Shown here: piece by piece, positions 22,352 through 59,917 of the stretch
How positions within the stretch are numbered: the stretch's first letter is position 1
Layout: each line of letters starts with the position of its first letter
Assembly (NCBI GenBank): GCA_008501765.1
Contig: QQUE01000004.1
Coordinates: forward strand, 62,001-126,000
From: Calditrichota bacterium
GTDB taxonomy: Bacteria > Zhuqueibacterota > Zhuqueibacteria > Zhuqueibacterales > Geothermadaptataceae
Direction of reading: 5' to 3'
Length of the DNA: 64,000 nucleotides
Position numbers and translations under genes: made by a program
The notes under the pieces: generated by a model
The model's database searches: none
The model's input: only the letters and a program-made list of their open reading frames with translations
Told to the model about the DNA's origin: nothing

Positions 22352-22551
22352 TTAACCTGAATAATTCGCACACAAAGGCACGAAGTCCACAAAAAATATT
22401 TAAATACTTATAAAATATAACTTTGTGTACCCCGTGGCTTTGTGAGAGCTGATTTTAATAGATAACTTAGTTTTTATTCTCGTCTTGTCTCAAACATCTA
22501 ATTATCAACAGGTTAAGAATATTAAAAATATTTGTGAATAAAGCAGGTTAA
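22352..22551. repeat. MITE-like element with CCTGAATAATTC ends, copy A
   Basis: Begins TTAACCTGAATAATTC and ends GAATAAAGCAGGTTAA, giving imperfect terminal inverted repeats, with TTAA on both sides of the CCTG..CAGG core. Inside, CACAAAGGCACGAAGTCC at about 22370 and its imperfect complement (GTACCCCGTGGCTTTGTG) at about 22425-22445 form a second hairpin. About 90% identical by eye to the reverse complement of copy B at 35237-35431. Non-coding. Confidence 0.8.
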
Positions 22552-34960: not shown

Positions 34961-35134
34961 ATGAACAAACATATTATCCGGGGTAGTATATTTTGTAGTC
35001 TCAGCCTTCTCCTTTCCATTTATGAGATATACACGACAAGCCCGCCCAGATTTCTACTTATCAGTGGCTATGCAATGACGTTTTGTCTTGGCGTTTTTCT
35101 AATTATCAGCCATAAAAAACGGCCGAAAACATGA
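34961..35134 (+). CDS. Possible small two-helix membrane protein
   Basis: 57 codons, ATG to TGA: an N-terminal charged segment, a hydrophobic helix (SIFCSLSLLLSIYEIY), a short loop with SPPRF, a second helix (LLISGYAMTFCLGVFLII) and a basic tail HKKRPKT. The composition suits a small membrane protein, but no good ribosome site is seen (TTAAAGTGATT upstream), so it may be spurious. Confidence 0.35.
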   Translation: MNKHIIRGSIFCSLSLLLSIYEIYTTSPPRFLLISGYAMTFCLGVFLIISHKKRPKT

Positions 35135-35230
35135 GCGAACCCTGTTCAATTCATATTGAAATTTCGACATAAATGAAGTGGAATTTTCGAACAGTCGATT
35201 ACGTTAAAATGAGAATAAATAATATTTTTA

Positions 35231-35437
35231 ATAGAGCCTGCTTTATTCACAAATATTTTTTAAAATATTCTTAACTTATTGATAATTAGATGTTTGAAAT
35301 AAGACGAGAAGAAAAACTAAGTTATCTATTAAAATTAGCTCTCACAAAGCCACGGGGTGCACAAAATTATGTTTTATAAGTATTTAAATATTTTTTGTAG
35401 ACTTAGTGCCCTTGTGTGCGAATTATTCAGGATAGAG
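35231..35437. repeat. MITE-like element with CCTGAATAATTC ends, copy B, with ATAGAG direct repeats
   Basis: The core runs from CCTGCTTTATTCAC (35237) to GCGAATTATTCAGG (35431), the reverse complement of copy A with about 90% identity by eye. The hexamer ATAGAG occurs on both sides (35231-35236 and 35432-35437), the best candidate target-site duplication in this family. The right end lies 12 bp before the start codon of the thioredoxin-like gene, so that gene's 5' leader is largely made of the element. Confidence 0.8.
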
Positions 35438-35443
35438 GTAATA

Positions 35444-35977
35444 ATGAAAGATTTATTGAAACATAACGCTGTCCTTCTTTTCACACTGTTGGTGCTCGCT
35501 TTTGGCCAATTGCAGGCTAATGAAAAAAACAGTGTCAACTGGGTTCCATTTGAGGATGCTCTGGCGAGAGCAAACAAGGAAAACAAACACATCGTCATCG
35601 ATTTTTATACAGACTGGTGCCATTGGTGCAAAGTCATGGACGAGCAAACATATAAAAATTCGGATGTCGTAAAATTTGGCAACGAGAAATTTCTTTTTGC
35701 AAAAATCCATGCTGAAAGTAATTCGATAATAAACTACAAAGGGCAAGATTTTACCTGTGTTCAATTCACCCAGGCGTTGGGCATCCGGGGGTATCCCGCC
35801 ACTGTTTTTATGAATGCCGATGGCGAATTTATAACAAAGATTTCCGGCTTTATCAAACCCGAACAGTTCCTTCCCATTCTGGAATATCTCGATGGCAAAT
35901 ATTATGATAAAATGTCCTATGATGAATTTATGAAAAAGAGAACCCCGAATCCCGGCAAAGAAGAAAAAAGCGAATGA
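35444..35977 (+). CDS. Exported thioredoxin-like protein (CxxC, DsbD-gamma/Thioredoxin_7 type)
   Basis: 177 aa from the ATG at 35444; the longer frame starts inside repeat copy B. A signal peptide (LLKHNAVLLFTLLVLAFGQLQA) predicts export. The thioredoxin fold follows with VIDFYTDWCHWCKVMDEQTY (active site CHWC) and the cis-Pro segment GIRGYPATVFMN. Its TGA stop overlaps the ATG of the next gene (ATGA), so it is translationally coupled to an ECF sigma factor. Likely role: periplasmic disulfide reduction or redox sensing. A lipobox is absent. The only ribosome-like site is AGAGGT immediately after the repeat. Confidence 0.88.
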   Translation: MKDLLKHNAVLLFTLLVLAFGQLQANEKNSVNWVPFEDALARANKENKHIVIDFYTDWCHWCKVMDEQTYKNSDVVKFGNEKFLFAKIHAESNSIINYKGQDFTCVQFTQALGIRGYPATVFMNADGEFITKISGFIKPEQFLPILEYLDGKYYDKMSYDEFMKKRTPNPGKEEKSE

Positions 35978-36585
35978 CACACAAACCCGACAACTCCGAT
36001 TTTATTCGCAGGTTGAAAAACCGGGATAAACAGGCCTTTCGCGAGCTGGTGGATATGTATCAAACCCGAATTTATAATCTGGGTTTAAAAATGCTGGTTA
36101 ATCGAGAAGATGCCGAAGATATTCTTCAGGAAACATTCATCAAGGTTTTCAGCAAAATCGACGCTTTCCGGGAAGAAAGTGAAATTAGCACATGGATTTA
36201 CCGAATTGCGACCAATGCGGCTCTGATGAAACTGCGGGAACGCCAGCGAATTAACAAAAAATTGACCGATCTGGATGACGTCAATATCATGCCCATTTTG
36301 CCTTCGAATTTATTGGTGACCGAAAAGACCCCTTTTGACAATCTATTAAATAAGGAGTCGCGCCATATTTTGGAAGAAGCAATAGAATCGTTGCCTGATA
36401 TTTACCGTGTGGTTTTTGTTTTGAAAGATGTCGAGCAGCTTGAAACGGCAAAAATTGCTGAGATTCTGGATCTTTCACATGAAGCGATTTACTCCCGTCT
36501 CAAACGGGCGCGAATCCAGTTGCGCAATTCGATTCTACAAGTTTACAAAGAAAAACAAGAGGAAGATAAACATGCCATGTCCTAA
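35974..36585 (+). CDS. ECF-subfamily RNA polymerase sigma factor
   Basis: 203 aa. Region 2: FRELVDMYQTRIYNLGLKML, NREDAEDILQETFIKVFSKI. Region 4: DIYRVVFVLKDVEQLETAKI, AEILDLSHEAIYSRLKRARI. The VEQLETAKIAEI segment deviates from the common EGLSYEEIAEI. It overlaps the thioredoxin-like gene upstream by 4 nt and the anti-sigma gene downstream by 14 nt, so the three are one translationally coupled operon. It probably directs RNA polymerase to envelope or thiol-stress genes. No autoregulated promoter could be identified because the upstream region is occupied by a repeat element. Confidence 0.93.
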   Translation: MTHKPDNSDFIRRLKNRDKQAFRELVDMYQTRIYNLGLKMLVNREDAEDILQETFIKVFSKIDAFREESEISTWIYRIATNAALMKLRERQRINKKLTDLDDVNIMPILPSNLLVTEKTPFDNLLNKESRHILEEAIESLPDIYRVVFVLKDVEQLETAKIAEILDLSHEAIYSRLKRARIQLRNSILQVYKEKQEEDKHAMS

Positions 36586-36796
36586 TCTATTTAACCGCAT
36601 CTGCGATGAATTGGGAGAAGATATCGATTCTATGCTGTGCAAAGAATTGAAAGAGCATGTGGAGAACTGTGAAGATTGCCGCTGCTGTTTAAAGTCCATT
36701 CGCAAAACAGTTCATTTATACCGCAAACTTCCTGATGAAAAAGTCCCGGCAGATGTAACCGATCGCCTGATAAAAATTTTAGATGAATCGTGTTAG
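36572..36796 (+). CDS. Zinc-finger anti-sigma factor (RsrA/ZAS-like), soluble
   Basis: 74 aa starting at 36572, with GAGGAAG 9 nt upstream inside the end of the sigma gene. The HxxxCxxC signature of ZAS-type anti-sigma factors is present in LKEHVENCEDCRCCL, and VPADVTDRLIKIL resembles the end of RsrA. Eight Cys in 74 residues and no membrane helix suggest a cytosolic thiol-responsive switch that binds the sigma factor when reduced and zinc-loaded. This role is inferred from the motif, size and position. The TAG stop is supplied by the first bases of repeat copy C (TTAGCCTGA). Confidence 0.85.
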   Translation: MPCPNLFNRICDELGEDIDSMLCKELKEHVENCEDCRCCLKSIRKTVHLYRKLPDEKVPADVTDRLIKILDESC

Positions 36797-36875
36797 CCTG
36801 AATAATTCTCACGCAAAGGCACTAAGTCCGCAAAGAAAATATTTTAATAAATATTATATGAATAAATCAGGCTAA
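36793..36875. repeat. Short MITE-like element with CCTGAATAATTC ends, copy C
   Basis: Begins TTAGCCTGAATAATTC and ends GAATAAATCAGGCTAA; the outer nine bases are exact inverted repeats. The left 50 bp match copy A (CGCAAAGGCACTAAGTCCGC), then it jumps to the far end, an internally deleted version. Its first TAG is the stop codon of the anti-sigma gene. It lies opposite in orientation to copy B, so the pair brackets the thioredoxin/sigma/anti-sigma operon. Confidence 0.75.
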
Positions 36876-36979: not shown

Positions 36980-37321
36980 ATGGCAACACATAACGAAATT
37001 GAATTAAATAAAACAAATTTTGATAGCGAAGTCATCAAATCAGACAAACCTGTTCTCGTTGATTTTTGGGCTGCATGGTGTGCACCCTGTCGCGCATTGG
37101 CCCCGACAATTGAAGAATTGGCCGAAGAGATGGGTGATTCCGCAAAAATCGGAAAAGTTGATACCGATTCAAATCAGGAACTTGCAATGCAATACGGTAT
37201 CCGCTCGATACCCACTGTTATGATCTTTAATAAAGGTGAAGTTGTTGAGCAGTTTATCGGCGTGCAGCCAAAGAGCGTTTTGAAGGACAAGTTACAATAT
37301 TATGCCGGAGTTCCTGCTTAA
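36980..37321 (+). CDS. trxA: Thioredoxin
   Basis: 113 aa cytosolic thioredoxin with the active-site WCAPCR (C34, C37), VLVDFWAAWCAPCRALAPTI, cis-Pro RSIPTVMIF and the C-terminal GVQPKSVLKDKL. It keeps general thiol balance in the cytoplasm. AAGGAG lies 9 nt before the ATG. It is separated from the sigma/anti-sigma operon by repeat copy C (about 180 bp gap), so it has its own promoter or depends on read-through. A thioredoxin next to a ZAS-type anti-sigma fits the known logic of thiol-stress circuits. Confidence 0.95.
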   Translation: MATHNEIELNKTNFDSEVIKSDKPVLVDFWAAWCAPCRALAPTIEELAEEMGDSAKIGKVDTDSNQELAMQYGIRSIPTVMIFNKGEVVEQFIGVQPKSVLKDKLQYYAGVPA

Positions 37322-58567: not shown

Positions 58568-58675
58568 AAAGTATTTGATCCTTTTCTCTTCAAATCTATT
58601 CATAAACAGGCAAAAATATGCCTGGCACTTATTCAAGTATGGTAAAAATATCAGAGGTTAATTTAACTGCTACCT

Positions 58676-58886
58676 GGTTATCCAGTTAACTCAGCTAAAT
58701 ACAAACCCACCCCTGTTCGCTGCTCATCGGCTTTGCCGTTCGCATCGTTCTGTCCCCTCCCAGGATGGGATTTAGCCTGAGACGGTTTTCAAATCCCCTC
58801 CCGGGAGGGGACGATATGCGAAAAAGCGTAGCGTTTTGTCGCATATCAGGGGTGGGTTTATGCAAAGCTGAGTTAACTGGATAACC
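58676..58886. repeat. Fold-back element with 21-bp perfect ends
   Basis: GGTTATCCAGTTAACTCAGCT (58676-58696) is the exact complement of 58866-58886. Inside are further paired blocks: ACCCACCCCTG with CAGGGGTGGGT, and two CCCCTCCC/GGGAGGGG modules around the centre, leaving about 100-bp arms with indels. The CCCACCCCTG and GGATGGGA modules also occur in the fold-back at 23788-23964. GTGCCAGGCAC half-palindromes lie just outside. No coding capacity. Confidence 0.78.
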
Positions 58887-58988
58887 GAGTAACCGCTAAC
58901 TTTAAAAAAAATCGAACAAGTGCCAGGCACATCACTAATGCTTTATAAATAAAGTGTGGCACGTAGATTTATACATCTGTTACAGAAC

Positions 58989-59917
58989 TAAGAGCCTATC
59001 CGAAAACCTCGGAAGCTCGAAACGTAATAGATGCACAAGCCAAATGTAACATAGCTTCATAGTTGTCAGCTTTTTTTCTCCCATCTGGTCAGAATTCTTC
59101 GATATCTGTTCATCCAGCTATGTGTTCTTTCACAAACCCAACGCCGTGCACGATAGCCCGGTATTTGTTTTTTTTCTTCATTTTCATCGGTACGGCTTTT
59201 GATATGTTCAACATATCCATAGGAGGCAATAAGATCACTTATTGCCTCAGATTTGTAAGCGTTATCAGCGCAAAAATGTTGAAGATTTTCTACAGAAAAC
59301 TGTGGACGTTCAACCATGATATTATCTAAAACATTCTTGACTTGAGTTACGTCATGGCGATTCGCTCCGGTTACAGCAAGCGAAATTGGAACACCTTTTC
59401 CTTCGGTGAGAAGGTGTCTTTTAGTTCCTTTCTTGGCTCTGTCAGTTGGATTAGCTCCTGTTTTTTCTTGACCTAAGGGAGCTTTGGTTATCGCGCCGTC
59501 TATTGATTGCCATTCCCAATCAATACCAACGCGCATATCGAATGCAATTAAACTAAAGCGCCAAAGCTCTTTAAATACACCGGCTTTTTGCCAGCTTTGA
59601 AAGCGGTCGTGGACCGTACTCGGCGCTCCTAAACATCGAGGCAAAGCTTTCCACTGAATACCAGTGCGCAAGATGTAAAAAATAGCGAAAAATGCTTTTT
59701 TATCTGACATAGGGGGACGGCCGCCCTTTGGACGTCGTGGCCAGGGCGGTATTATTTCTTTTGCAAATTCCCACAGTTCCGGGGAAGGCAAAAACTTGTG
59801 ATTGACACCAAATTGGCAAGCATGTTTTGTACACATGCTTGATAAAGCTAAAAGAAAAAACGTGAATTCCTCGACTGGTCATACGTTCACCTGTTGAGGT
59901 TTTCGGATAGGCTCTAA
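58989..59917 (-). mobile_element. Complete IS5-family insertion sequence
   Basis: Inverted repeats GAGCCTATCCGAAAACCTC at 58992-59010 and 59896-59914 are perfect over 19 bp; TAA flanks both ends (58989-58991 and 59915-59917) as the likely 3-bp target duplication, typical of IS5/IS427-type elements. Element length is 923 bp. It carries a single transposase gene and looks intact and therefore recently active. Confidence 0.92.
59066..59836 (-). CDS. IS5-family DDE transposase
   Basis: 256 aa. N-terminal DUF4096-like region (LPSPELWEFAKEIIPPWPRR, YILRTGIQWKALPRCLGAPS), then the RNase H-like core with catalytic D113 (SIDGAITKAP), D191 (CADNAYKS) and E236 (WVCERTHSWMNRYRRIL, the YREK-like motif of IS5). 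Full length and uninterrupted. The exact start is uncertain because the N-terminal CTKHACQFGVNHK is not conserved; TTG or ATG starts a few codons away are possible. Confidence 0.92.
   Translation of the reverse strand: MCTKHACQFGVNHKFLPSPELWEFAKEIIPPWPRRPKGGRPPMSDKKAFFAIFYILRTGIQWKALPRCLGAPSTVHDRFQSWQKAGVFKELWRFSLIAFDMRVGIDWEWQSIDGAITKAPLGQEKTGANPTDRAKKGTKRHLLTEGKGVPISLAVTGANRHDVTQVKNVLDNIMVERPQFSVENLQHFCADNAYKSEAISDLIASYGYVEHIKSRTDENEEKKQIPGYRARRWVCERTHSWMNRYRRILTRWEKKS

Follow-up and report, generated by a model that had tools for sequence, protein, structure and literature searches.

Two kinds of described systems come closest to the locus studied here. In Streptomyces (SigR/RsrA) and Corynebacterium (SigH/RshA), an ECF sigma factor gene is followed by the gene of a soluble CHCC zinc anti-sigma factor, with thioredoxins nearby and a GGAAT-N18-GTT promoter. 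The promoter consensus of SigR and SigH is GGAAT-N18-19-GTT (PMC9205884, PMC10012870). In RsrA, Cys11 and His37 are spaced by 26 residues, and the CHCC type is tied to disulfide sensing (PMC4960319). The second kind comprises prokaryotic MITEs such as Correia, ERIC, Chunjie and QMITE, which are short, A+T-rich, intergenic elements with terminal inverted repeats and target duplications, present in tens of copies with nested insertions and size variants (PMC10969869). Some MITEs carry outward promoters, and in Neisseria and Yersinia, MITE transcripts are targeted by RNase III or RNase E (PMC10969869).

Here we analyzed a locus where both kinds appear to meet. The window is a stretch of 64,000 nucleotides (positions 62001-126000 of contig C10) from the source genome G000, a 5.9-Mb draft in 21 contigs; relatives are numbered from G001, which belongs to the same genus. 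Two repeat elements, copies B and C, border an operon for a thioredoxin-like protein, an ECF sigma factor and an anti-sigma factor. Comparison with relatives argues, with a probability of about 0.9, that B and C, both IS1380-type MITEs, inserted independently of each other into the intergenic regions bordering an old resident operon.

An operon resembling SigR/RsrA

The features of the locus are collected in Table 1. Orthologues of the thioredoxin-like protein are 47-69% identical in G001, G002, G003 and G005, and those of the sigma factor are 64-80% identical in genus and family. A sigma protein match of 76% identity was found in the same-genus MAG 'bacterium isolate Dive96_bin3.88' (JAJRYV010000136), and the next named matches are Calditrichota. 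Many members of the class encode the sigma/anti-sigma pair; a thioredoxin-like gene next to it was seen solely within the family. A small membrane-protein-like ORF of ~57 aa (window 34962-35134, + strand) lies immediately before the operon. Since G001, G003 and G005 have similar small ORFs ahead of theirs, it may belong to the neighbourhood.

Table 1 Features of the operon and its bordering elements (window positions).
Feature	Position	Strand	Description	Basis
Predicted autoregulatory ECF promoter	35180..35206	+	GGAAT-N18-GTT, upstream of B	Alignment with relatives
Left target duplication of copy B	35231..35236	.	ATAGAG, includes ATAG	Sequence; family duplication length is 4 bp
Copy B	35237..35431	+	195-bp MITE, CCTG...CAGG ends, predicted 5' leader of operon	~40 similar copies genome-wide; ends match relatives' IS1380 elements
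Right target duplication of copy B	35432..35437	.	Its AGAGG bears the ribosome-binding site	Comparison with relatives
Thioredoxin-like protein	35444..35977	+	DUF255/Thioredox_DsbH, CHWC motif, hydrophobic N-terminus	PF03190, E 1.5e-18
ECF sigma factor	35974..36585	+		PF04542 and PF08281
Zinc anti-sigma factor	36572..36796	+	74 aa, CHCC type: Cys3, His29, Cys33, Cys36	Weak RsrA match TIGR03988
Left target site of copy C	36793..36796	.	TTAG, contains stop codon TAG	Sequence
Copy C	36797..36871	-	75-bp MITE, subgroup other than that of B, between anti-sigma gene and trxA	Predicted hairpin, z -2.37
Right target site of copy C	36872..36875	.	CTAA	Sequence
Thioredoxin TrxA	36980..37321	+	Next gene; also here in G001 and G002	PF00085 and TIGR01068

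As in SigR/RsrA-type operons, a CHCC motif (Cys3-His29-x3-Cys33-x2-Cys36) is encoded downstream of the sigma factor gene, and Cys3 precedes the histidine of HxxxCxxC by 26 residues, the RsrA spacing. All 17 aligned anti-sigma orthologues keep His29, Cys33 and Cys36 as well as Cys11 and Cys23, while Cys3 is missing in two of those aligned. Further likenesses to SigR/RsrA and SigH/RshA are the soluble anti-sigma factor, the thioredoxins nearby and the GGAAT-N18-GTT promoter. The operon differs from these systems in its co-encoded secreted-type thioredoxin and in the weak RsrA sequence match. As the match to the curated RsrA profile TIGR03988 (17.9 bits) is far under the cut-off (62.5), we propose a similar way of working without assigning membership. 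Overall, the operon resembles the SigR/RsrA thiol-stress switch and most likely works like it. The CHCC zinc anti-sigma factor would release the sigma factor under thiol oxidation, and the thioredoxins would restore the anti-sigma factor. Together, the promoter and the CHCC motif suggest a SigR-like thiol-stress circuit in an uncultured group far from Actinobacteria.

Copies B and C as members of a large MITE family

The preliminary description of the locus had reported B and C as one family of terminal inverted repeats placed head to head around the three-gene module, with B ending 12 bp before the first start codon and flanked by ATAGAG repeats. These observations stand, with exact coordinates: the arms at 35388-35434 (B) and 36794-36840 (C) are 83% complementary, so that the elements are inverted relative to each other, and the ATG at 35444 starts 12 bp past the end of B. 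The two copies represent different subgroups of one large family in the source genome, which also includes copy A at ~22352-22550 of the window.

B and C are short, multicopy and without coding capacity. For copy B we found at least 44 matches in the source genome, ~40 of them long copies with 80-97% identity, and the best pairs within its family are 99% identical; copy C has at least 46 matches. The end motif NTARCCTGNNTTATTC occurs 183 times among the matches listed, compared with 15 for a reversed-pattern control. The abundance of the repeat is far above chance. The two ends carry the terminal inverted repeats CCTG(C/A)TTTATTC and CCTGAATAATTC. Exact 4-bp NTAN duplications, mostly of TTAA, TTAG or ATAG, flank 23 of 38 aligned copies (33 of 38 when up to one mismatch is allowed). 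Duplication lengths of 2, 3, 5 and 6 gave one exact case each among the 38 copies, and only 4 bp stands out. None of the copies of the B family examined in the source genome lies within an ORF of at least 80 aa.

Compared with this clear family-wide pattern, the target duplications of B and C themselves are imperfect. The 6-bp ATAGAG on both sides of B is an exception to the 4-bp duplication of the family: with AGAG as left flank the 4-bp rule holds only with one mismatch, the alternative being a 6-bp duplication. The flanks of C, TTAG and CTAA, differ at two positions.

In relatives, CCTG-type ends are enriched over the control (G001, 98 vs 10; G002, 37 vs 5; G004, 64 vs 2), while the body of B was essentially confined to the source genome. 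The core pattern of B had no match in a named genome collection, from which records of the source genome were possibly excluded. At least two further bodies carry the same ends, namely a 142-bp element with GTGGATGTGCCTGGCACTT and the C subgroup. The 142-bp element, seen at ten loci, has CCTG ends and 4-bp duplications like B and a body unlike that of B.

Several other repeats touch the family. Other elements are nested inside B copies at two loci (L069 and L070). A second repeat family of ~240 bp, with ends near GGTTATCCAGTTAACTCAGC and GGAGGGG palindromes, is nested within B-family copies (window 58660-58902; L069, L070 and L145). B copies at separate loci have long flanking sequence in common (L018 with L023; L025 and L027 with L069), which indicates that some copies were duplicated inside larger repeats. 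The assembly is interrupted at many contig ends (eleven loci) by an IS that has ends TAGGGYTTCACAAAATT and occurs in multiple copies; its body is absent from the assembly. Several copies of it lie within CCTG-type MITE tips, as though this IS favoured them for insertion.

The B/C family shares with the described prokaryotic MITEs all of the traits listed above; it differs in a sequence that is unrelated as far as searched and in having IS1380 as its cognate family. It is a new, unremarkable group of IS1380-related MITEs beside a conserved SigR-like switch, and IS1380-related MITEs make up a large share of the dispersed repeat load in this lineage.

Ends and target sites point to IS1380

The CC... 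ends and the 4-bp TA-centred target were taken by us as pointing to the IS1380 family, which was picked as candidate before the ends of its elements were inspected. IS1380 genes occur in 25 of the 60 relatives searched, including G003, G005 and G008. Three intact IS1380 elements of 1642-1758 bp in class relatives (L269, 1275-2916; L270, 54-1700; L271, 896-2653) have 12-bp ends that read CCTGNNTWATTC followed by ACAAA/ATAAA, the same as B. Their flanks (TTAA/TTAG, TTAG/TTAG and ATAA/ATAA, respectively) have the same 4-bp duplication length as the B/C family, and their proteins match NF033539 with 378-403 bits. Such a pair of CCTGNNTWATTC-type ends was found in 0 of 104 control loci (916 kb). 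IS1380-family transposons (PF13701, NF033539) and the B/C family hence have 12-bp ends and 4-bp NTAN duplications in common, the ends being equal to those of an autonomous element; B and C differ in being only 195 and 75 bp long and in lacking a transposase. Since the intact transposons combine the same ends with the same duplications, B and C are best classified as MITEs derived from IS1380, a membership that rests on ends and target.

The source genome gave no match to the IS1380 transposase (PF13701), so that the mobilising enzyme is deduced from relatives. MITEs can outlive their IS, and a cognate transposase in the same genome is not strictly defining. The assembly breaks at repeats, and an unassembled IS1380 copy in the source genome is therefore possible. 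Long spacings between CCTG ends in the source genome yielded no coding element. Among the publications searched that name both 'IS1380' and 'miniature inverted', none had IS1380-derived MITEs as its subject as far as titles and opening lines tell.

Three other autonomous partners were considered and rejected. GxxExxY (PF13366) genes occur at six loci of the source genome, none with CCTG ends, and their borders resemble the MITE body only in a CACAAAGGCAC-like motif. Several of these six genes are bordered by CACAAAGG/GCAAAGACGCAAAG-like repeats resembling the inner part of B and C. The IS5-type (PF01609) transposase of the window has other ends, GAGCCTATCC; this IS5-family gene (59066-59836, - strand; NF033580, 217 bits) is part of an IS that looks complete, with ends GAGCCTATCCGAAAACCTC and a probable TAA duplication. 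The ends of the TAGGGYTTCACAAAATT-type IS at contig breaks are unrelated.

Copy B in the predicted leader and copy C at the stop codon

Upstream of B, GGAATTTTCGAACAGTCGATTACGTTA matches GGAATTTTGTTTTGCCAAACGGCGTTA of G001, and with B removed both lie 70-75 nt before the start codon, at nearly equal distance. The motif, GGAAT-N18-GTT (35180-35205), equals the SigR/SigH consensus. Related motifs were found at other distances in G003 and G005; the motif is absent upstream in G002 and at the sigma loci of distant relatives. With the pattern chosen after the alignment had been inspected, 0 of 2000 shuffles had it in at least three of the five upstream regions. The strict motif has 5 matches genome-wide vs 3 in the control, which gives no ground for proposing a regulon.

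The ribosome-binding-site region of relatives reads GAAAGAGGTTAAAATG and GATGAGGATAAAATG at the position of the right duplication of B. Removal of B and one ATAGAG rebuilds TTTTTAATAGAGGTAATAATG, parallel to GAAAGAGGTTAAAATG in G001, so that the ribosome-binding site is native and was retained in the target duplication. Because the conserved predicted promoter lies upstream of B, the element is probably within the 5' leader and begins ~25 nt past the transcription start. B would have inserted downstream of the ECF promoter and upstream of the ribosome-binding site. Transcription of the operon probably still starts at its own SigR-like promoter and yields a leader ~195 nt longer.

At the other border, the TAG stop of the anti-sigma ORF abuts C and lies within the target site TTAG, outside the element. 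In G001 and G002, the anti-sigma proteins are likewise 74 residues long, and their reading frames finish with TGC TAA or TGT TAA. This shared length and end indicate that C, which would have landed at the stop codon, left the protein unchanged. Of the claim that C provides the stop codon, at most the last base can be kept.

The RNA of C can form a predicted hairpin between the anti-sigma gene and trxA, and an effect on the message may or may not follow. Its folding is better than that of most shuffles (z -2.37; 3 of 200 as good), and the RNase targets in Neisseria and Yersinia would fit a reading in which the elements were kept as message regulators, B by lengthening the leader and C by forming a hairpin for stabilisation or processing. 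We consider this unlikely: terminal repeats fold by construction and a hairpin is expected of an inverted repeat, B folds no better than chance (z -0.70), and the copies are spread genome-wide without a tie to this operon. It is equally doubtful that one IS1380-type MITE in the leader of an ECF sigma operon under autoregulation and redox control, and a second one between the anti-sigma gene and trxA, altered expression of the stress switch in this species; if they did, a longer leader, new processing sites and a changed sigma/anti-sigma/TrxA ratio would be expected.

The proposal that the elements supply the promoter finds no support. B lies directly upstream of the gene, has one weak sigma-70-like site (35259-35286) and could resemble other MITEs with outward promoters. 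However, promoter-like sites in the region are not in excess (6 vs 7.8 in shuffles) and the conserved predicted ECF-type promoter lies upstream of B, making it improbable that B provides the operon with its main promoter in place of native control.

Independent insertions beside a resident operon

The locus is colinear in G001, where p443, TauE-like, GT, trx-like, sigma, anti-sigma, trxA, zinc ribbon and clpB genes follow in the same order. No B- or C-type repeat lies next to the operon in G001, G002, G003 or G005 (same genus and family). The preliminary description had weighed a composite cassette against elements that landed repeatedly at the module's edges, had argued from the ATAGAG repeats that B inserted independently, and had named a repeat-less operon in relatives and a promoter upstream of B as arguments against its proposals. 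The comparison with relatives that it had suggested found the former, and the latter is predicted.

Head-to-head copies of one family do flank the module, but a move of all three genes as one composite cassette with B and C as its outer ends is highly improbable, as the cargo is present in relatives without repeats (in the same gene order in G001), ATAGAG outside B and CTAA outside C are not matching outer duplications, B and C are of different subgroups, the best other sigma match in the source genome is only 35% identical, and a cassette could survive synteny only if the relatives had lost both elements with exact repair.

Independent insertion, in turn, is supported by the family-wide target duplications. 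A transposase acting in trans, presumably of the kind found in the relatives, would have recognised the CCTG...TTATTC ends of B and C, and by comparison with other copies each element would have inserted at an NTAN site with duplication of 4 bp. This removes the mobile regulatory cassette as a false lead and identifies the repeats. Since TTAA, TTAG and other such NTAN targets include stop codons, the elements can land at gene ends without damage.
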